A stretch of 64,000 bases of DNA from Brachyspira pilosicoli P43/6/78 (GTDB lineage Bacteria > Spirochaetota > Brachyspiria > Brachyspirales > Brachyspiraceae), in NCBI RefSeq assembly GCF_000325665.1, contig NC_019908.1, positions 372,001-436,000 of the forward strand, read 5' to 3'. The notes below the pieces were generated by a model that saw only the letters and a list, made by a program, of their open reading frames with translations, had not been told where the DNA came from and searched no databases. Below are positions 1,987 to 57,550 of this stretch, in pieces (positions within the stretch are counted from its first letter, which is position 1; each line of letters begins with the position of its first letter). Both the position numbers and the translations under genes were made by a program.

Positions 1987-2051
1987 ATTATAAAAATTGA
2001 TTATTAAAAAACTAAATTATAATTTATCAAATATTTTGAAACAGTATATAC

Positions 2052-2307
2052 TACAAATTTTTAACTTTCTTCATTTTTATTATTTGCAGGGCTTTGCCCC
2101 GCACCCCAGTTCTTTTGTTGGCACAAAGAACCAAAAAGACTGCATTTAATGAAGTATAGCTTTTTATATATAACAAAATATAAATATTATTTTAGCTTTA
2201 TATATTCCAAACATGCCAAGCTAAACCATTTGCACTTTTTGCAACTTTTTGCTGCGGGAAAAAGAACAACAAAAAAATTGATATATAATAATTGTTTTAC
2301 TATATGC
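2052..2307 (-). repeat. LR intergenic element, unit 1 of a tandem pair
   Basis: First of two near-identical units with a period of 256 bp (identical landmarks at 2086 and 2342). Read on the minus strand, module L is a hairpin stem around GCGG and module R has a GTTCTTT/AAAGAAC hairpin followed by a GGGGC-AAA-GCCC hairpin. In this unit the outer arm of module L is partly replaced (AAAAAGAAC instead of AAAAAGTTG). The open frames across it are a by-product of the repeat. The rest of the 1987-2051 gap shows nothing recognisable. Confidence 0.85.
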
Positions 2308-2530
2308 TGCAAATTTTTAATTTTCTTTATTTTTATTATTTGCAGGGCTTTGCCCCGCACCCCAGTTCTTTTGTTGGCACAAAGAACCAAAAAGACTGCA
2401 TTTAATAGAGTATAGCTTTTTATATATAACAAAATATAAATATTATTTTAGCTTTATATATTCCAAATGACAAAGCTATAGTACTTGCACTTTTTGCAAC
2501 TTTTTGCGGCGGGAAAAAGTTGAATAAAAT
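2308..2530 (-). repeat. LR intergenic element, unit 2 of a tandem pair
   Basis: Second tandem unit. Its module L is complete: CAACTTTTT and AAAAAGTTG arms enclose GCGGCGGG at about 2484-2524. Module R (about 2342-2400) is nearly identical to unit 1. It ends about 140 bp before thrC, just upstream of a candidate thrC promoter. Confidence 0.85.
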
Positions 2531-2573
2531 ATACATTATATAAAAAAATTATTTGTTTAATAGTAATTAAAAC

Positions 2574-2602
2574 TTGAAAAATTGTTGTTTATATTATATT
2601 CT
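2574..2602 (+). promoter_or_regulatory. Candidate promoter of thrCB
   Basis: TTGAAA at 2574-2579 and TATTCT at 2597-2602 with a 17-base spacer, about 70 bases before the thrC start. No T-box or threonine leader peptide is visible in the gap. Confidence 0.4.
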
Positions 2603-2668
2603 ATATTAAATACTATTAATAATAATTATTAATTTTTATAAGTTAATAACATTAAAAAGGATAATATT

Positions 2669-3724
2669 ATGAAAGCATGGAACGGACTTTTAAGAGAATA
2701 TAGAGAATATTTACCAATTACAGATAAAACCCCATTAATAACATTGCATGAAGGAAATACTCCATTAATAAAAGCAGAAAAGATAGGAAAAGAACTTGGA
2801 GGCATAGAATTATATTTCAAATATGACGGACTTAACCCTACAGGTTCATTTAAAGACAGAGGAATGGTAATGGCAGTTGCTAAGGCACTTGAAGAAGGCT
2901 CAAAGGCTATAATGTGTGCTTCTACAGGAAACACTTCTGCATCTGCAGCAGCATATGCAGCAAGAAGCGGTATTCAATGTATAGTGGTTATTCCAGATGG
3001 AAATATTGCTTTAGGAAAATTAGCACAGGCTTTGATGTATGGTGCTAAGGTTATAGCTATTAAAGGTAATTTTGATGAAGCATTAAAGGCTGTTGTGGAT
3101 ATTACAAATAAATACCCAATTACATTGGTAAACTCTATTAACCCATTTAGGCTTCAAGGTCAAAAAACTTCTGCATTTGAGATTTGCGATACTTTAGGAA
3201 AAGCTCCTGATTATTTGGCTATACCTGTTGGAAATGCTGGAAATATATCTGCATATTGGATGGGTTTTAAAGAATATAAAGAAAACGGAAAGGTATCAAA
3301 CTTACCAAAGATGATAGGTTTTGAGGCTGAAGGCTCTGCTGCTATAGTACAAAACAGAGTAATAGAAAATCCTCAAACTTTGGCTACTGCCATAAAGATA
3401 GGTAATCCTGCTAGTTGGAAGTTAGCTGTTAATGCTGCTAATGAATCTAATGGTTTTATAGACTCTGTTACTGATGATGAAATATTAGAGGCTTACAAAA
3501 TGCTTACAAGAGAAGAGGGTATATTTGCTGAGCCTGCTTCTGCTGCTTCTTTGGCTGGAGTTATAAAAACTTACAAAGCGGGTAAACTTAAAAAAGGTGA
3601 TGTTGTAGTTTCTGTACTTACAGGAAATGGACTTAAAGACCCTGATAATGCAATAAAGATTTGTTCTGCTCCTATAAAAGTTGATAACAATATAGAAGAG
3701 ATAAGAAAAGCTATAGGAATATGA
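2669..3724 (+). CDS. thrC: Threonine synthase
   Basis: PLP enzyme converting O-phospho-L-homoserine to threonine, the last step of the pathway. The 351-residue length fits the short bacterial form. The PLP lysine is Lys62 in GSFKDRGM, and the phosphate-binding loop VGNAGN lies at 187-192. AAAGG precedes the ATG. The adjacent thrB makes its substrate; the genes are 3 bases apart and surely co-transcribed. Assignment to threonine synthase rather than another fold-type II enzyme rests on the N-terminus ([14 protein letters not shown]) and on thrB next door. Confidence 0.96.
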
Positions 3725-3727
3725 TTT

Positions 3728-4687
3728 ATGAATAATAAAAAAAATAATAATAAAATATCAAAAAATAAAAAACTTGTAACTTTTAAAATTCCTGCTACAT
3801 CTGCCAATATTGGTTCTGGATTTGATAGTGTAGGGCTTGCTTTAGATTTGTATAATGAAATACATATATACGAAAATGAAAACTCTAAAAAAATAGAATT
3901 TGAAATAATAGGCGAGGGCGAAAATGAGATATCAAAAGACAATAATATGATACTTGACGCCATGAAGCTTGTATACAAAAAACTAAAAGCAAAGCCAGAA
4001 AAAGGCTATATTATAAAATGTATAAACAGAATACCTTTATCAAGAGGGCTTGGAAGCAGTTCTGCAGCAATTATTGGAGGGCTTCTTTCTGCAAATTATA
4101 TATTAGGAAATAAACTCTCTCTTGAAAATGATATATTGAATATGGCTGTTCAGCTTGAAGGACACCCCGATAATGTTTCCCCTGCCATACTTGGAGGAAT
4201 TATATCTGGTGTTGTACGCAAAAATGAAGATTTTAAATATGTTAAAATTAATACTCCAAAAAATTTAAAAGCAATAGTTGCAATTCCAAACTTTCATTTA
4301 AGTACAGAAAAAGCAAGAAATGCTCTGCCAAAAGAAATAAGTTTTAAAGATGCTATATTTAATATTTCAAGAGCAGCACTTCTTACTTCTGCATTGTCTT
4401 CAAATAAACTTGATTTACTTGAAGTGGCAACAGATGATAAACTACATCAAGATTATAGAGCTAAGTTTATACCAGGGCTTAAAGAATTATTTAAAGAAGC
4501 AAAAAAAGCAGGAGCTTATTCTGTTACTATTAGCGGTGCAGGTTCATCAATATTAGCATTAGTTAAAAACGATGAAAATATTATTAAAAAAGTTTCTAAT
4601 GCTATGAAAGAAAGTTTTGCTAAAAAGAAAATAGAATCAGAAATAAAAGTTTTGAATATACCAAACAAAGGGATAGTAGTTATTTAA
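3728..4687 (+). CDS. thrB: Homoserine kinase
   Basis: GHMP-family kinase that phosphorylates homoserine for ThrC. The ATP-binding motif PLSRGLGSSSA is at 103-113, and IPATSANIGSGFDSVG near residue 21 is the family N-terminus. It carries about 16 extra Lys/Asn-rich residues before that motif, unlike typical members, which start directly there. The ribosome site (AGGAAT) lies inside the end of thrC, pointing to coupled translation. No intrinsic terminator follows; an LR element begins about 30 bp downstream. Confidence 0.95.
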   Translation: MNNKKNNNKISKNKKLVTFKIPATSANIGSGFDSVGLALDLYNEIHIYENENSKKIEFEIIGEGENEISKDNNMILDAMKLVYKKLKAKPEKGYIIKCINRIPLSRGLGSSSAAIIGGLLSANYILGNKLSLENDILNMAVQLEGHPDNVSPAILGGIISGVVRKNEDFKYVKINTPKNLKAIVAIPNFHLSTEKARNALPKEISFKDAIFNISRAALLTSALSSNKLDLLEVATDDKLHQDYRAKFIPGLKELFKEAKKAGAYSVTISGAGSSILALVKNDENIIKKVSNAMKESFAKKKIESEIKVLNIPNKGIVVI

Positions 4688-4715
4688 TACAATATAGTTA
4701 GTATTATTTTATTAC

Positions 4716-5030
4716 CTTGCACTTTTTGGTTCTTTGACGAAGTCCGCAGAGCGTATGCTGCGGGAAAAGAACAATAAAAAATTGATATATAGTAATTGTT
4801 TTACTGCAAATTTTTAATTTTCTTTATTTTTATTATTTGCAGGGCTTTGCCCCACACCCCACTTCTTTTGCCGCCGCAAAGAAGCAAAAAGGCTGCATTT
4901 TTAGCTTAAAATAAATGTATTATTTCATACTTAATACATATTCCTAAAACATTAGCTATAGTATGTGCGTTTTTTGCAACTTTTTGACTAAGTCCGCACC
5001 GCGAGAGCGACAAAAAAGTTGAATAAAAAA
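4716..5030 (-). repeat. LR intergenic element with L-R-L arrangement
   Basis: The minus-strand reading shows module L (4969-5027), module R (about 4840-4910) and a second module L (4716-4770). Both L modules have GC-rich loops: GACGAAGTCC followed by CAGAGCGTA near 4736, and GACTAAGTCCGCACCGCGAG near 4986. Module R has CTTCTTT/AAAGAAG arms, where the 2052 copy has GTTCTTT/AAAGAAC, so the end pair is swapped on both sides. Confidence 0.85.
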
Positions 5031-16174: not shown

Positions 16175-16432
16175 TATTATCAACTTCTTCTCGCTGTAAA
16201 AAGTGCAAATATTTTAGTTTTATATCTAGAAAATATATAAAATAATACCATGCATTTTTTGATATACTTAATAAAAATGCAGTTCTTTTGGTTCTTTTAT
16301 ACCAATAAAAGAACTGGGGGTGTGGGGGCAAAGCCACCACAAATAATAAAAAACATAAAAATTTTATTATTCTTTTTCCCGCATCTACGCTCTGAGGACT
16401 TCGTCAAAGAACCAAAAAGTGCAAATAAAAAA
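16175..16432 (+). repeat. LR intergenic element with L-R-L arrangement
   Basis: A degenerate module L (16178-16215) is followed by module R with GTTCTTTTAT/ATAAAAGAAC arms (about 16278-16315), then a third hairpin with arms GTGGGGGC (16322-16329) and GCCACCAC (16333-16340). A second module L (about 16373-16425) has a GC-rich loop containing GACTTCGTC at 16397-16405, the reverse complement of the cassette in the 4716 copy. It lies between the nifS terminator and cysK. The open frames over it are artefacts of the repeat. Confidence 0.85.
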
Positions 16433-16464
16433 TAATATAAATATTTATTATTTTGGAGATTTAT

Positions 16465-17376
16465 ATGATAGCTAACAACATACTCGATTTAATAGGTAAT
16501 ACTCCTATTATAAGATTAAGTAATATTGAAACTAAATTTAATTTAAATAAAAATATAGAATTATATGGAAAAGTAGAAAAAAATAATCCTGCTGCTTCGA
16601 TAAAAGACAGAGCAGTAAAACAAATATTATTAGATTTAATCAAAGACGGCAAAATAAAAAAAGGTTCTACAATTATAGAGCCTACTTCAGGAAACACCGG
16701 AATTGCTATGGCTGCTATTGGAAGCTATTTATCTCTTAATGTTATAATAGTTATGCCTTCTTCAATGTCTGAAGAGAGAAGAAAACTTATAAGAGACTAT
16801 GGAGCAAAGTTGGAATTAGTTGATGGGGGAATGGATAGAGCAGTTGAAAGAGCAAATCAACTAAACAGAGAAATACCTGATTCTATAATAGCAGGTCAGT
16901 TTATTAATGAATCTAATGTTATGGCGCATTATTTAACAACAGCACCAGAGATATATAAAGATATGGGAGATGTAGATTATATATTTGCAGGAATTGGCAC
17001 TGGAGGAACTGTTACTGGAATAGGGAAGTATGTTAAAGATAATAATAAAAATACTAAAGTAATTGGAGTTGAAGCAGAATCTTCTCCTCTTCTTACAAAA
17101 GGCTATGCTGACTCTCATAAAATACAGGGAATAGGAGCTAATTTTATACCAAAAATTTTGGATTTGAATGTAATAGAAAAAATAATAGATGTATCAGATG
17201 ATAATGCCATTAATACTGCAAGAGAAATATGTTTTACTGAAGGTTTATATGTTGGTATATCTTCAGGGGCTAGTGTTTATGCTGCAATTGATTTATCAAG
17301 ACAATTAGATTTAAATAATAAAATAAAGATGCTTTGTATTTTACCTGATACAGGAGAGAGATATTCTTGGAATTAA
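16465..17376 (+). CDS. cysK: Cysteine synthase A (O-acetylserine sulfhydrylase)
   Basis: A 303-residue PLP enzyme making cysteine from O-acetylserine and sulfide. The PLP lysine is Lys47 in PAASIKDRA; the loop TSGNTGIAMA and the late motif GISSGAS are present. The ATG at 16465 is preferred because GGAG at 16455-16458 is correctly spaced; an upstream in-frame TTG overlaps that site. cysE follows after 12 bases, so both steps of cysteine synthesis are in one unit. Confidence 0.95.
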   Translation: MIANNILDLIGNTPIIRLSNIETKFNLNKNIELYGKVEKNNPAASIKDRAVKQILLDLIKDGKIKKGSTIIEPTSGNTGIAMAAIGSYLSLNVIIVMPSSMSEERRKLIRDYGAKLELVDGGMDRAVERANQLNREIPDSIIAGQFINESNVMAHYLTTAPEIYKDMGDVDYIFAGIGTGGTVTGIGKYVKDNNKNTKVIGVEAESSPLLTKGYADSHKIQGIGANFIPKILDLNVIEKIIDVSDDNAINTAREICFTEGLYVGISSGASVYAAIDLSRQLDLNNKIKMLCILPDTGERYSWN

Positions 17377-17388
17377 AGGATTATATTT

Positions 17389-18099
17389 ATGAAACTAAAA
17401 ACTTTTAATGAACTTCCTAATCAAAATGATATAAAAGAAATTGTAAAACTTATAAGGGACTATGTTTTTCCTAATTTTTTTAGAGAGACTCCTAATAAAG
17501 ATATTGTAGAAAAAAATATAGCTGAACTTTATAAAAAAATAGTAAATAATGATTCTCTATTATTGGATTTTATAGAAAAGCTTAAAGATATTAAATTAAG
17601 TCTTGAAAAAGATTTAGAGTTTTTTTATCAGTCTGACCCTGCTTCAAAATCTTATGATGAAATAGTATTAACATATCCTGGTTTTAGAGCGATTTTTCAT
17701 TATAGAATAGCACATATATTTTATAATCAAAAAGAGTTTTTAATAGCAAGAACTATATCTGAATTTGCACATTCAAAAACAGGTATAGACATTCACCCAG
17801 GAGCTAATATAGGAGATTATTTCTTTATAGACCATGGTACAGGGATAGTTATAGGTGAAACTACACTTATAGGTCATCATGTAAAAATATATCAAGGGGT
17901 TACTTTGGGGGCATTATCATTAACTAATGGAAGAAGTTTAGAAGGCAAAAAAAGACACCCTACAGTTTGCGATTATGTTACAATATATGCCAATGCTTCT
18001 ATATTTGGAGGGGACACTGTAATAGGTAAAAATTCTATCATTGGTGCTAATTGTATAGTTTTAGAATCGGTTGAAGAAAACAAAAAAATCACTTTATAG
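17389..18099 (+). CDS. cysE: Serine O-acetyltransferase
   Basis: 236 residues that acetylate serine with acetyl-CoA to give the CysK substrate. A helical N-terminus is followed by a left-handed beta-helix with motifs DIHPGANIGDYFFIDHGTG and YQGVTLGALS. The stop follows ESVEENKKITL directly; related enzymes usually continue for several residues, so the tail looks slightly short. An LR element starts about 20 bp further on, which may explain the shortened end. AAGGA precedes the start. Catalytic parts are intact. Confidence 0.92.
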   Translation: MKLKTFNELPNQNDIKEIVKLIRDYVFPNFFRETPNKDIVEKNIAELYKKIVNNDSLLLDFIEKLKDIKLSLEKDLEFFYQSDPASKSYDEIVLTYPGFRAIFHYRIAHIFYNQKEFLIARTISEFAHSKTGIDIHPGANIGDYFFIDHGTGIVIGETTLIGHHVKIYQGVTLGALSLTNGRSLEGKKRHPTVCDYVTIYANASIFGGDTVIGKNSIIGANCIVLESVEENKKITL

Positions 18100-18120
18100 A
18101 TTTGTATATTTTATAAAAGT

Positions 18121-18425
18121 ATTATCAATTTTTTCCCGCGTACGAACTGTACCACCTTGCCGCACAGTAATGTTATGCTTTAATTATAACTTCTTAGTCG
18201 TGCGTGGGAGTGCCTTTTAATGTACAATTAAATTATGAAATTTATAATAAAAATGCAGTTCTTTTGGTTCTTTTATACCAATACCGAAGGCACTTCCTAC
18301 GGTCGTACCGAGTAGGTGCCTATCAGCAAAAGAACTGGGGTGCTGCATGGTGTGTACTTCGTTAAGGGTAAAGCCCTGCAAATATTTTCATTAAAACAAA
18401 TAATTTTTTTATTTAATGTATATTT
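18121..18425 (+). repeat. LR intergenic element, tandem unit 1 of 3
   Basis: Module L here has a long loop starting with GTACGAACTGTACCACCTTG at 18140. Module R begins at TGCAG (18254); its loop also holds inserted sequence with CGAAGGCACTTCCTACGGTC. The third hairpin is reduced to GGGTAAAGCCC near 18370. The block from about 18140 to 18270 recurs almost unchanged at 18712-18840. Confidence 0.8.
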
Positions 18426-18694
18426 TATTCAACTTTTTCCCGTAGCAAAAAGTTGCAAAAAGTACAAGTATTTAAGTTCTTCTCTTACGTTTAGCTAAAG
18501 TGCAAATATTTTTATTTTATATCTAGAAAATATACAAAATAATACCATTATATTTTTGGCTATACTTAATAAAAATGCAGTTCTTTTGCTTCTTTTATAC
18601 CAATAAAAGAAGTGGGGGTTCGGGGGCTAGTCCCCGAAAATAATTAAAATAAAAAAGTTAAAAATTTTAAGAATATATTAAAATAATAATTTTC
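18426..18694 (+). repeat. LR intergenic element, tandem unit 2 of 3
   Basis: Simple module L (CAACTTTTT, CCCGTAG, CAAAAAGTTG), then module R from TGCAG at 18576 with CTTCTTTTAT/ATAAAAGAAG arms. The third hairpin uses a completely different stem, TTCGGGG (18619-18625) with CCCCGAA (18632-18638). The tail has the AAGTTAAAAATTTTAAG block seen at the right end of other copies, without a -35 box. Confidence 0.85.
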
Positions 18695-18854
18695 TATCAA
18701 CTTTTTCCCGTGTACGAACTGTACCACCTTGCCGCACGGTAATGTTATGCTTTAATTATAACTTCTTAGTTGTGCGGGGAGTGCCTTTTAATGTACAATT
18801 AAATTATGAAATTTATAATAAAAATGCAGTTCTTTTATACCAATACCATAGGCA
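18695..18854 (+). repeat. LR intergenic element, tandem unit 3 of 3 (truncated)
   Basis: Module L with the same GTACGAACTGTACCACCTTG loop at 18712, followed by the start of module R (TGCAG at 18825). It breaks off at the tsf terminator and lacks the third hairpin. Confidence 0.75.
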
Positions 18855-18884
18855 TAAAAAAAGAGGCTTAATATAAAGCCCCTT
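18855..18884 (-). terminator. Intrinsic terminator of rpsB-tsf
   Basis: On the minus strand GGGGCTT, a loop, AAGCCTC and then a run of seven T. It lies 24 bases after the tsf stop, at the edge of the truncated LR unit. Confidence 0.8.
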
Positions 18885-26225: not shown

Positions 26226-26287
26226 ATATGGTTTAAAAATTATTATTTATATATATCTAAATAACTATGTTATTTAGATATATATTT

Positions 26288-26570
26288 TATCAACTTTTTC
26301 CCGCCGCAAAAAGTTGCAAAAAGTGCAAGTTTTTAGCTTTATATTTAGATAATATATAAACAATATATTGTATTTTGATTATATATAAGTAATACTTTAT
26401 TAAAATGCAGTCTTTTTGCTTCTTTGGGTCATACCTAAAGGTACTTCCTTCGGTCGCAAAAAGAAGTGGGGGTGTGCACCCTCCGGGCACGCTTCGCAGG
26501 GGGCAAAGCCACCACAAACAAAAAACTTAAAATAGATTTTTTGACAAAGTTAAAAATTTTCAGTATAATT
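26288..26570 (+). repeat. LR intergenic element with promoter-bearing right end
   Basis: Module L (CAACTTTTT, CCCGCCGC, AAAAAGTTG, then a second GCAAAAAGT) is followed by an AT-rich spacer and module R with CTTCTTT/AAAGAAG arms. The R loop contains CATACCTAAAGGTAC at 26430-26444, found again at 57414-57428. A GC-rich insert (CACCCTCCGGGCACGCTTCG) precedes the GGGGC-AAA-GCC hairpin. The tail holds the promoter at 26541-26569. An open frame across the element is not a gene. Confidence 0.85.
26541..26569 (+). promoter_or_regulatory. Promoter of the lolC-lolD-type operon, inside the LR element tail
   Basis: TTGACA (26541-26546), 17 bases, TATAAT (26564-26569): a full consensus sigma-70-type promoter. 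It lies in the segment AAAGTTAAAAATTTTCAG that other LR copies share at their right ends. Transcription would start about 38 bases before the TTG codon at 26613. Confidence 0.8.
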
Positions 26571-26689
26571 AAACTATCAACTAAATTACTTTTAATTTTT
26601 TGGAGTTTTCTTTTGAAGATTAGAATTAATGTTGGGTGTGAGATACCTAAAAGCCTAAAAAGAAGTTTTCATTTGTTTCTATAATTACA

Positions 26690-27925
26690 GTGATATGTAT
26701 ACTCGGCATACTTGTGGGCGATATGGTTATGATTACTGTTTTATCTGTTATGAATGGCTTTCAAGATGATATAAGAGATAAAATACTTGGAATGAGGGCT
26801 CATATAAATATCAGTGCCTATGGAGACCAACCTCTTCTAAACTATGAGTATGTTGTAGATAATATTAAAGACAATAAAGAGATAACAAGCATTTATCCTT
26901 ATATAGTTCTTCCTTCAATAATGCGTACATATACTTTTACAACGCTTATTACAGTTCGTTCATTTGAAGATGATATATTTACAAAAGATAGGGATTTTAT
27001 TAAGTATTTTAAGTTTATTGAGGGGTATAATAAAAATTTAGGCACTAATGATGCTTTGATAGGCTCTGAGATGGCAGACGATTATGCTTTATCTGTTGGA
27101 GATACTATAGATATAGTTTCTGCTTCTGGAAGTTTTGAAAAAGGATTTAGACCTCAAAAGACAACTTTTACAATAAAGGGAATATACAAAACAGGCTACT
27201 ATGAATATGACAGTAAAATGGTGATAGTGCCTCTAAAAACAGCTCAGGCTATGATGGGTTATGAAGGAGGAGTAACAGGCGTAGCTGTAAAAATAAAAAA
27301 TTTCTTTGATGCTGATAAGGTTGCTAAAAATATAGATTTGTCATTAAAGCAGTTTTATAATGTTATGCCTTGGATGCTTTTTGACAGAAACTTTTTTCAG
27401 GCACTTCATACAGAAAAACTTATGCTTGGTTTAATATTATCTTTTATTATATTAATAGCTGCTCTAAACATAGCATCAAGCCAGATAATATTTGTTAAAG
27501 ATAAAAGAAGAGATATTGCTATAATAAAGACTCTTGGATTAAGACCTTCAAATGTAGCTAAGGTATTCTTTTTGGAAGGGGCTATAATAGGAGGAGTTGG
27601 TACTATTTTGGGTGTGATATTTGGAATACTTCTTGCAAGCTATGTAAATGAAACTTTAGAGTTTATAAGGGCATTTTTACAATCTATAGTAAGCATTATA
27701 TGGTTTATACCAGCACATATAAGTCCTTCTATAACTGTGCCTATAGTGCCTGATTTCTTCCCTCCAGATATTTATTATGTAAGTAATGGGCTTCCTTCAA
27801 TAATACGTTTTTCACAAGTTTTTATGGTTGCTTCTATATCGTTTTTACTTTCTGTTTTATTTGCTATAATACCTGCATATATAGCAAGCAAATATAAACC
27901 TGCTGAGGTGTTGAGATATGAATAA
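26690..27925 (+). CDS. lolC: LolC/LolE-type ABC permease, 5' end disrupted
   Basis: Permease of a lipoprotein-releasing or MacB-like exporter. The 411-residue frame from GTG 26690 holds the first membrane segment (ICILGILVGDMVMITVLSVMNGFQDD), a large periplasmic domain and three C-terminal membrane segments of the FtsX fold. The likely true start is TTG 26613 (MKIRINVG), with GGAG 7 bases upstream. From there the expected N-terminus runs through three frames: MKIRINVG, then VRYLK, then KPKKKFSFVSIITV. Two small indels near 26637 and 26650 are thus implied. If real, a GTG start would lose about 25 residues. lolC versus lolE is not resolvable. Confidence 0.8.
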   Translation: MICILGILVGDMVMITVLSVMNGFQDDIRDKILGMRAHINISAYGDQPLLNYEYVVDNIKDNKEITSIYPYIVLPSIMRTYTFTTLITVRSFEDDIFTKDRDFIKYFKFIEGYNKNLGTNDALIGSEMADDYALSVGDTIDIVSASGSFEKGFRPQKTTFTIKGIYKTGYYEYDSKMVIVPLKTAQAMMGYEGGVTGVAVKIKNFFDADKVAKNIDLSLKQFYNVMPWMLFDRNFFQALHTEKLMLGLILSFIILIAALNIASSQIIFVKDKRRDIAIIKTLGLRPSNVAKVFFLEGAIIGGVGTILGVIFGILLASYVNETLEFIRAFLQSIVSIIWFIPAHISPSITVPIVPDFFPPDIYYVSNGLPSIIRFSQVFMVASISFLLSVLFAIIPAYIASKYKPAEVLRYE

Positions 27926-28628
27926 TAATATGAATAGTAATATTGCTAATAGAGAAGTTTTAATAACTATAGATAAACTAGTAAAAACATATGTTGGACC
28001 TCCAAAGGTTGAAGTATTAAAATCTATAAGTTTAGATATTTATAAAAATGAGATATTGGCTATTACTGGGGAGTCTGGAAGCGGTAAAACAACGCTTTTA
28101 AACCTCATAGGCGGTATAGATGATATTACATCTGGAAGTATTAATATAAACGGCAACAATATAGGCAAGATGAATGAGGGGCAGTTGGCTAAGTTTAGAA
28201 ACAAGTCTTTAGGTTATGTGTTTCAATTTCATAATTTGCTTGGAGAGTTTAGTGCTATAGAAAATGTAATGATACCTGCTTTAATGTTAAAATATGATAA
28301 AAAAAATGCCCGCATAAAGGCTGAAGAATTACTTGAGACAGTTGGGCTTAAAGATAGAATGCATCATAGAATAGGGGAGCTTTCAGGCGGAGAGGCACAG
28401 AGAGTTGCTATTGCGAGGGCTTTAATTAATAGTCCTATGGTTGTGTTGGCTGATGAGCCTACTGGAAATTTAGATAAGAAAAATGCTGAAATTATCAGAG
28501 AGATTTTGTGGAATATGACTAAAAAAACTTCATCTACTTTGATTATTGTAACGCATTCTTTATCTATTGCTAGTATGGCTGATAGGAAATTAAGACTAGA
28601 ATACGGTGAAAAAATAGTGGAATACTGA
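27918..28628 (+). CDS. lolD: LolD-type ABC transporter ATPase
   Basis: 236 residues. Walker A GESGSGKTTLLN near 53, signature LSGGEAQRVAIARAL near 155, Walker B MVVLADEPTGNLD. This is the LolD/MacB-type subfamily pairing with FtsX-fold permeases. It overlaps the permease gene by 8 bases, implying coupled translation. Likely role: energising lipoprotein release from the inner membrane. Confidence 0.92.
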   Translation: MNNNMNSNIANREVLITIDKLVKTYVGPPKVEVLKSISLDIYKNEILAITGESGSGKTTLLNLIGGIDDITSGSININGNNIGKMNEGQLAKFRNKSLGYVFQFHNLLGEFSAIENVMIPALMLKYDKKNARIKAEELLETVGLKDRMHHRIGELSGGEAQRVAIARALINSPMVVLADEPTGNLDKKNAEIIREILWNMTKKTSSTLIIVTHSLSIASMADRKLRLEYGEKIVEY

Positions 28629-46021: not shown

Positions 46022-46050
46022 TTGACAGCTTTAGATATTTTTTTATAATT
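46022..46050 (+). promoter_or_regulatory. Promoter of the large ankyrin gene
   Basis: TTGACA (46022-46027), 17 bases, TATAAT (46045-46050): full consensus. Leaves a leader of about 155 bases. It lies 8 bp from the divergent flaB promoter. Confidence 0.7.
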
Positions 46051-46211: not shown

Positions 46212-48350
46212 GTGTTTACAAATAAAGAAAAAATTGAATTTTTTAACGCTGTAGAAGATGGGGACATTCAGAAAATAAAATATTTATTGAATAAAGATAA
46301 TTATATAAATATAAATGTATTTGGAATAGCAAAAATATTAATTGACAATAATAAAAATGATGTTGAAAAAAAAGATGTTGAAATTGATTTTAAGAATGAA
46401 GAAGGATACACTCCTTTAATGATTGCCTCTTATAAAGGAAATACTGACATAGTAAAACTTTTATTGGAGTATAATGCTTCTGTAGATATAACTAATAATT
46501 ATAATTATACTGCTTTGATATATGCATGTATTTATGGCAATTTAGATGTCGTTAAAATTCTTCTTGAACATAAAGCTGATATGTATATAGAGACTAAATT
46601 AGAAAAAAATTATTTAACAACATTGATGATAGCTTGCAGTCAAAATTATACTGAAATAGTGAGAATATTACTTGAAAACGGCTATGACCCTAATTATAAA
46701 AATCAAAGAGGAGAAACAGCGTTTATATATTATATTTCTATAGAAAACAACCCTAGTATAGAAATAATAAAATTATTATTAGAATATGGTGCAGATATAA
46801 ATGCTCAAAATAGCAAAGGCTCTACGGCATTGATGCTTGCTTCTTACGATGAAGAAAAAAAAGATTTTATGAGGACTTTATTAGAAAACGGTGCTGATAC
46901 GGAATTAACAAATAATTATAATGGGAATACCGCCTTGCTTAATGCATGTGAACGAAGAAATATTGAAGGAGTTAAACTTCTTCTTGAATATAATGCTAAT
47001 ATAAATGTGCAAGATAAATTTAAAAAGACTCCTTTAATATTAGCCTGTGATGCTGATTCTTATGATATAGTAAAAATATTGTTGGAGCATAATGCCGACA
47101 TAAATTTATCAGACCATAGAAAAGAAACGCCTCTAATGTATGCAGTAGAAGAAAAAAATAGAGATATTGTTGAACTTCTTCTTAAATATAAACCTGATTT
47201 AACATTAAAAAATGAATCTTCAAAAACTGCATTAGATATTGCATATAAAAGAAATAATTATGTAAAAGAAATAGCAGATTTAATAAAAGAAGCTTCCTCT
47301 AGAGAGATACAATTTTTATATGCTGCTGCTGAAAATAATATTGATAAAGTTTTAAAATATATTGCTGAAGGAATTGATATTAATAATACAATAGATGAAT
47401 CAGATGATTCAATAGGTTCTAATGCTTTGATTTTAGCTTCAGAGTTTCATCATAAAGAAATAATAAAAATATTATTAGAGAATAATGCTGATGTTAATTT
47501 TAAAAATTATTTAAATAAAACAGCTTTAGAATATGTTGCTAGTAATGATGATAATTTTGATATAGCTTTAGAGTTTATAAAAAGGGGAGCTGATGTAAAT
47601 GCTTTAGATAATGAAAATGCTACACCTTTAATGTATGCTGCTTCCCACAATGCTAAAAAAATATTAAACTTATTAATAGAGCATAATGCTGATATTAATA
47701 TTCAAACTAAATCAGGCTACACTGCTTTAATTCTTGCGGCTATGCATAATCATATTAATATAGTAAAAATTTTAATAGAAAATAAAGCTGATGTATTTGC
47801 AAGAGATGGTTATGGAAGAAGATGTTCATATTATGCAGATGAAAATTGGAATGATGAGATGTATAAAATTTTTAGTAAATATCATGATGATGAATATAAA
47901 AAAAATACTCAATTTATTTTTGATGTTTTATATTCCAAAACTGATGAAATAAATAAATATATATCTGAAGGCGGAGATGTTAACTTTCAAGATGATAGGG
48001 GACTTACAGCTTTAACTGTTGTAGAAAAGAGAGAGATTGCAAAGATATTATTAGATAATAATGCAGATATTAATAAAAAAGGAAGGGACGGATATACTCC
48101 ATTAATGATGGCTGTAAGGAGAGATAATATTAATCTTCTAGAATTTTTTATAGAAAATAATGCTGATCTTGATATGTATGATCCTGAAGGAAATACTGCA
48201 TTAATTGTAGCTGCTAAAAATCACAAAAATGATATATTTGAGCTTTTATTAAAAAACGGAGCAGACCCATCTATAAATAATGAAGATTTAAAATTCTATA
48301 TAGAGTTTGAGGATGAAATGCAAAATATATTAGAAAAATACAGTAAGTAG
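46212..48350 (+). CDS. Large ankyrin-repeat protein
   Basis: 712 residues from a GTG start with AGGA 7 bases upstream. No signal peptide, so cytosolic. Roughly 17-18 ankyrin repeats, for example GYTPLMIASYKGNTDIVKLLL, GSTALMLASYDEEKKDF and GYTPLMMAVRRDNINLLEFF. Two interruptions (near 360-380 and 550-590), each starting with a QFLYAAAENN- or QFIFDVLYSK-like segment, suggest three arrays joined by duplication. Likely a protein-binding scaffold; target unknown. A long hairpin follows the stop. Confidence 0.88.
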   Translation: MFTNKEKIEFFNAVEDGDIQKIKYLLNKDNYININVFGIAKILIDNNKNDVEKKDVEIDFKNEEGYTPLMIASYKGNTDIVKLLLEYNASVDITNNYNYTALIYACIYGNLDVVKILLEHKADMYIETKLEKNYLTTLMIACSQNYTEIVRILLENGYDPNYKNQRGETAFIYYISIENNPSIEIIKLLLEYGADINAQNSKGSTALMLASYDEEKKDFMRTLLENGADTELTNNYNGNTALLNACERRNIEGVKLLLEYNANINVQDKFKKTPLILACDADSYDIVKILLEHNADINLSDHRKETPLMYAVEEKNRDIVELLLKYKPDLTLKNESSKTALDIAYKRNNYVKEIADLIKEASSREIQFLYAAAENNIDKVLKYIAEGIDINNTIDESDDSIGSNALILASEFHHKEIIKILLENNADVNFKNYLNKTALEYVASNDDNFDIALEFIKRGADVNALDNENATPLMYAASHNAKKILNLLIEHNADINIQTKSGYTALILAAMHNHINIVKILIENKADVFARDGYGRRCSYYADENWNDEMYKIFSKYHDDEYKKNTQFIFDVLYSKTDEINKYISEGGDVNFQDDRGLTALTVVEKREIAKILLDNNADINKKGRDGYTPLMMAVRRDNINLLEFFIENNADLDMYDPEGNTALIVAAKNHKNDIFELLLKNGADPSINNEDLKFYIEFEDEMQNILEKYSK

Positions 48351-57337: not shown

Positions 57338-57387
57338 TTTTTTAATATATCTAAAAAATTATATTTTGTTATAAAGGTTTTTATTTT

Positions 57388-57550
57388 ATTAAACTTTTTC
57401 CCGCCTTTGCACCCATACCTAAAGGTACCTTGTCTACGGCAAAAGAAGTGGGGTGCTACTAAGTACGCACAGCGGTGGGCAAAGCCCTGCAAAATAATTA
57501 AAATTAAAAAACTAGATTTTGAGCAAATATAAAATTTTAAGTATATACTA
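57388..57550 (+). repeat. LR intergenic element, internally deleted
   Basis: Module L (AAACTTTTTCCCGCC) runs straight into the module R loop cassette CATACCTAAAGGTAC at 57414-57428, so the AT spacer and first R arm are missing. The GGGC-AAA-GCCC hairpin is near 57478-57489 after a GC-rich insert. The tail has TTGAGC (57519-57524), 17 bases and TATATA (57542-57547), a weaker version of the promoter in the 26288 copy. It points into the 3' end of the SNF2 gene on the opposite strand. Confidence 0.8.

Follow-up and report, generated by a model that had tools for sequence, protein, structure and literature searches.

The window analysed here is a 64,000-nt stretch of the genome of Brachyspira pilosicoli P43/6/78 (G000:C1:372001-436000; G000 is a single contig of 2,555,556 bp), and it was compared with 25 congeners, giving 26 genomes in all. 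It carries lolC and lolD, genes of lipoprotein export. In mechanical open reading frame calls, lolC lies on the plus strand at 26614..27925 and encodes MacB_PCD and FtsX domains, and a lolD-like ABC ATPase gene lies on the same strand at 27918..28628. The conserved TTG start of lolC is at about 26614; here the frame is open only from a GTG at 26690, the first ~25 codons (26612-26690) being out of frame with the remainder. Compared with every relative read, each of which has an intact copy, the sequence here differs in length by a single base at two places. If the damage is real, the promoter described below may serve a defective gene; alternatively, the break may be a sequencing error. Among named database records, those closest to this lolC are from B. 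pilosicoli, at 98-99%.

A sequence-only reading had proposed a consensus promoter upstream, reading into the permease gene, and its exact coordinates hold: TTGACA at 26541..26546, a 17-nt spacer, and TATAAT at 26564..26569, all on the plus strand (TTGACAAAGTTAAAAATTTTCAGTATAAT). Between 25000 and 28700 there are 23 promoter-like sites, and no other scores 12/12; shuffled sequence is expected to give 21.9, so the weaker sites there are uninformative. The perfect form TTGACA-N16-18-TATAAT occurs twice in the whole window (26541 and 46022) versus 0.25 times in shuffles. The other perfect site, at 46022-46050 with a 17-bp spacing, lies upstream of an ankyrin-type gene at 46212 and has a spacer unrelated to the repeat described below. 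The position of the -10 box predicts a transcription start at 26575..26578 (plus strand). A literature search on Brachyspira transcription starts returned nothing relevant, and the lolC promoter is putative, resting on consensus, conservation, and precedent.

The promoter site and the end of a repeated element

A repeated element occupies 26252..26567 on the plus strand, upstream of lolC (~316 bp, left boundary approximate). Its profile match covers 26288-26534 and was extended at both ends by matches to terminal inverted repeats (TIRs), which move its start from 26288, where it had been placed before, to about 26252. The right TIR (26541..26567, plus strand; outward reading TTGACAAAGTTAAAAATTTTCAGTATA) matches the genus-wide TIR pattern at 20/20 positions and ends in a TA (26566-26567), presumably that of the target site. 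The left TIR (26252..26278, minus strand) is of a second class and decayed, matching at 17/27 here, while its orthologous counterparts in G012 and G016 match at 19/27.

The proposal that the right end of the element supplies the lolCD promoter thus needs one amendment. The -35 box lies within the right TIR, and the TATA of the -10 box is the TIR end with its TA target; the final AT of the box comes from host DNA beyond the element. We attribute the -35 box, spacer, and TATA to the element on the basis of an exact 20-mer match, the register with other copies, and the presence of other promoters in element-free relatives. Several right tails carry variants of TTGACAAACTTAAAAATTTTCAGTATATA in register after GGGCAAAGCC. 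An nhmmer profile of the tail was too weak for such AT-rich sequence, and ungapped scoring against shuffles was used instead: among 104 right tails from this genome and close relatives, some of them orthologous, 29 scored at least 20/33, versus 22/520 shuffled ones. The lolC tail matches the genus-wide 20-mer TTGACAAASTTAAAAATTTT exactly, while the best match in shuffled windows was 16/20. At up to one mismatch, TTGACAAASTTAAAAATTTT has 29 sites in this genome and up to 208 in one congener, versus 0-1 sites in genomes with few elements (G001, G003, and G019); the reversed pattern, used as a control, has none in this genome and 0-1 per genome overall.

The tail common to several copies, which the earlier reading had noticed, is therefore real, and it is also found at the opposite end. 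In distant congeners the same outward-reading sequence stands at both element ends, beside GCGGCGGGAAAAAG on the left and after the GGGCAAAGCC or GGGGACTAG side on the right, which identifies it as a terminal inverted repeat. Read inward it is 5'-TATACTRAAAATTTTTAAGTTTGTCAA, and read outward TTGACAAASTTAAAAATTTTYAGTATA. Conservation ends after AGTATA across unrelated loci. The second TIR class (e.g., TTGACAAAATATATTTGTTTCAGTATA) differs in the middle and shares TTGACAAA and TTTYAGTATA with the first, and sites that fit this frame almost always have a spacer of 17 (n = 135; spacer 16, n = 3; spacer 18, n = 4). Such fixed spacing could be kept by a transposase alone. A further reading is that selection maintains the TIRs as promoters, both classes holding the two boxes at 17 bp; element bodies that flip or swap beside a fixed junction, as at lolC, would then alter transcription around lipoprotein-export and other genes throughout the genus. 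This seems to us quite unlikely.

Relative to shuffled sequences, the RNA of the element has a much stronger fold (z = -5.3), and searches against Rfam and for tRNAs gave no match. GC-rich hairpins in the element (26285-26535; also L015-L018, L062, and L066) swap or gain nested hairpin inserts of the TTCGGTCGCAAAAAGAAG and CGCGAAGCGTACCCGAAG types between orthologous copies.

Identity of the elements

The best reading of these elements is that they are MITEs derived from an IS630-type transposon. They have terminal inverted repeats, seen at both ends in congeners, although the left one is decayed in the lolC copy (17/27); complete copies are short (~243-370 bp) and number in the dozens, and the lolC copy holds no transposase gene. 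An autonomous relative is represented in two genomes. In G015 (L298, ~758-1813), a degraded element of 1,056 bp with TIRs matching at 26/27 and 21/27 encloses pieces of an IS630-type transposase (DDE_3, PF13358), and in G023, at a contig end, the N terminus of this transposase is accompanied by a 27/27 TIR at a similar distance. The degraded element, having the same ends, is likely of the parent type. A second IS630-type remnant in G015 (L301) is related to it and more decayed. No intact IS630-type parent was found among the 26 genomes, and neither DDE_3 nor the transposase N terminus reached threshold in the P43/6/78 genome; most of the species examined seem to lack the transposase.

Target-site evidence comes from a filled site in G007 (L236; GATTA/TATACTGAAAA...TTTTCAGTATA/TTTCAAAT) compared with an empty site in G014 (L272; GATTACATTTCAAAT). 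This single clean empty site fits a TA duplication only with one C/T difference, and is thus suggestive rather than proof. Derivation from a REP/RAYT or IS200/IS605 element, which would involve a Y1 transposase and ends without TIRs, does not fit elements that have TIRs, and this model was dropped because the Y1 transposase (PF01797) is absent from this genome. Long TIR pairs in L233, L238, and L240 proved to enclose ordinary genes and no transposase. The genome papers and literature searched make no mention of a MITE family in Brachyspira, and this genus-wide family is apparently undescribed so far.

Repeat bodies of other kinds (...TATAAAGTGCATCAG and ...GGTGCCGCGGCTCGCGG; L109, L113, L119, L132, L141, L142, and L225) terminate in this TIR as well, which points to several MITE families with one TIR and presumably one transposase. 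At L090, L096, L103, and L104, TIR pairs meet head to head through a common AGTATATACT in a palindrome of ~54 bp, as would result if one element inserted into the end of another. The palindrome TTTTAGTATATACTAAAA, considered as an operator or target, was rejected as such, being at least partly two TIRs joined at the common AGTATATACT.

The lolC locus across Brachyspira

All five genomes of the B. pilosicoli clade (G000, G011, G012, G013, and G016) keep TTGACA-17-TATAAT at lolC. The element is directed toward lolC in G000, G012, and G016, where its right TIR forms the promoter site, and is oppositely oriented in G011 and G013, where the left TIR does so; the element bodies differ so much that a body swap, a renewed insertion, and a simple inversion are indistinguishable. 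In the congeners outside the clade that were read at this locus, the lolC promoter region is free of elements of this family (two of these loci are cut by contig ends). There, G001 and G003 have TTGCAT-17-TATAAT, and most others have TTTAAA...TATAAT. Outgroup lolC promoters likewise contain a box resembling TATAAT at roughly this distance, and their leader is faintly similar; some of the -10 region may therefore be ancestral, which is consistent with insertion into it, though not proof.

In five genomes the promoter persists whichever way the adjacent element points, and relatives have promoters at the same position. This could indicate a native lolC promoter, beside which the element inserted, with a resemblance that is coincidental. 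Our initial reading was of this kind, based on survival of the site beside a reversed element, and it was dropped because both element ends carry the same TIR. We now regard a native promoter as highly improbable, given that the site agrees at 20/20 positions with a repeated TIR and stands exactly in register with the element, that the control for this pattern occurs 0-1 times per genome, and that element-free relatives lack the TIR sequence at lolC; none was found with the same 27 bases.

The TIR might instead be merely promoter-like, with TTGACA and TATA kept for transposase binding while lolCD is transcribed from another start. TIRs do need transposase recognition, and most of their ends, with TATATA, make imperfect promoters directed at gene ends. 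At lolC, however, the full sigma-70 consensus is suitably spaced from the start of the gene, and the site is kept in five genomes (lolC-proximal TIRs match at 25-26/27) while the far-end TIRs have decayed (17-25/27). This explanation therefore appears unlikely to us.

We consider it probable that the lolC promoter site is the right TIR of a nonautonomous IS630-type MITE, inserted in the ancestor of the B. pilosicoli clade, completed by host bases, and now serving as the main lolCD promoter. An IS630-type MITE would have inserted upstream of lolC in that ancestor, its TIR supplying the -35 box, a spacer of the optimal 17 bp, and TATA, and the host bases after the TA target, AT in this case, would have completed the -10 box. 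Sigma-70 RNA polymerase would then start at the predicted position, and selection would maintain the TIR-derived site as the current main promoter of lolCD. Most other copies, lying between convergent genes, are probably not used as gene promoters.

Copies elsewhere and their neighboring genes

A profile search found ~60 or more element copies in sampled sequence of this genome; this count and the copy statistics below refer to stretches chosen around copies. Within the window, further copies form tandem clusters at 2045-5024 and 16178-18867, and the cluster at 18123-18867 is expanded relative to a single truncated copy in G016. In the draft genome G014, many contigs (C9, C10, C11, C16, C17, C33, C46, C63, and C79) have a TIR within ~110 bases of their start; elements thus probably break assemblies and are undercounted. 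The copy formerly placed at 57388 spans 57346..57545 on the plus strand, between convergent genes, with a left TIR of the second class matching at 20/27 and a right TIR at 21/27. Its boxes read TTGAGC and TATATA, as had been noted, at a 17-bp spacing in 57519-57547, and its tail points toward the 3' end of the gene that follows.

The sequence-only reading had suggested that the element could spread mobile promoters, and dispersed promoters that rewire many genes would fit the intact TIRs, which typically have TTGACA and TATA with a spacer of 17, and the several TIRs that lie 6-40 nt before start codons with -10 boxes of 5/6 or 6/6. Gene orientation argues against such a general role. Intergenic regions with elements comprise 27 convergent, 27 tandem, and 3 divergent ones, versus 10, 59, and 33 without (chi-square p = 3e-8), meaning that convergent regions are favored (27/57 versus 10/102, p = 3e-7) and divergent ones avoided (3/57 versus 33/102, p = 5e-5). 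Among 181 independent TIR sites, 88 face a gene end, double the 44 that have a gene start ahead of them within 150 nt. Most often the TIR end produces TATATA, not TATAAT, with TATATA, TATAGT, TATAAC, and so on found at other insertions, and few TIRs near gene starts have a perfect -10 box (4/44, versus 1/88 where a gene end is faced; the signal is weak, p = 0.04). The perfect boxes near gene starts include, besides lolC, L158, L111, and L223; at L158 the spacer is 16 nt and the site lies 38 nt before a membrane-protein gene with a ribosome site. At L165, TATAAC stands 17 nt before a gene that has an AAGGAG ribosome site and encodes a protein of 148 residues. We hold a dispersed set of mobile promoters, an idea with weak support, to be very unlikely; with this orientation bias and so few perfect -10 boxes, promoter creation looks like an occasional by-product, sometimes kept, and not the main effect of these elements.

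Relation to known elements

The closest precedent is the neisserial Black promoter, proven in Neisseria, in which an element end carries a -35 box and a partial -10 box that the insertion site can complete (PMC2649163). The junction at lolC has the same composition and would work by the same logic, its capacity to drive transcription being putative. The Correia element of Neisseria (CREE, nemis) is likewise short and multicopy, with inverted repeats of ~26 bp (PMC2649163), and its inversion has been reported (PMC10969869). The Brachyspira element differs from it in sequence, phylum, and internal body; the Correia repeat ends CCGGTACGG and TCAGGACAA (quoted in PMC2649163) are absent from the Brachyspira TIR given above. 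Moreover, 71 of 113 gonococcal CREE lie 5' of genes (PMC2649163), whereas the Brachyspira copies avoid gene starts. With IS630-family insertion sequences the likeness lies in the ~1.06-kb G015 element, which has the same TIRs and a DDE_3 transposase, and in a consistent TA target; the lolC copy differs in lacking a transposase. By a review's description, MITEAba12, BrickBuilt, QMITE1, and SonMITE_1 are comparable MITEs with sigma-70-like promoters able to affect neighboring genes (PMC10969869).

Our findings name a likely IS630-type parent for the Brachyspira MITE family, and the lolC junction would be a second, unrelated instance of a Correia-type junction promoter. Because nature provides replicates, with two body orientations and element-free relatives, the capture of this promoter is directly testable. 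A core cell envelope gene in one species clade appears to have exchanged its promoter for the end of a mobile element.
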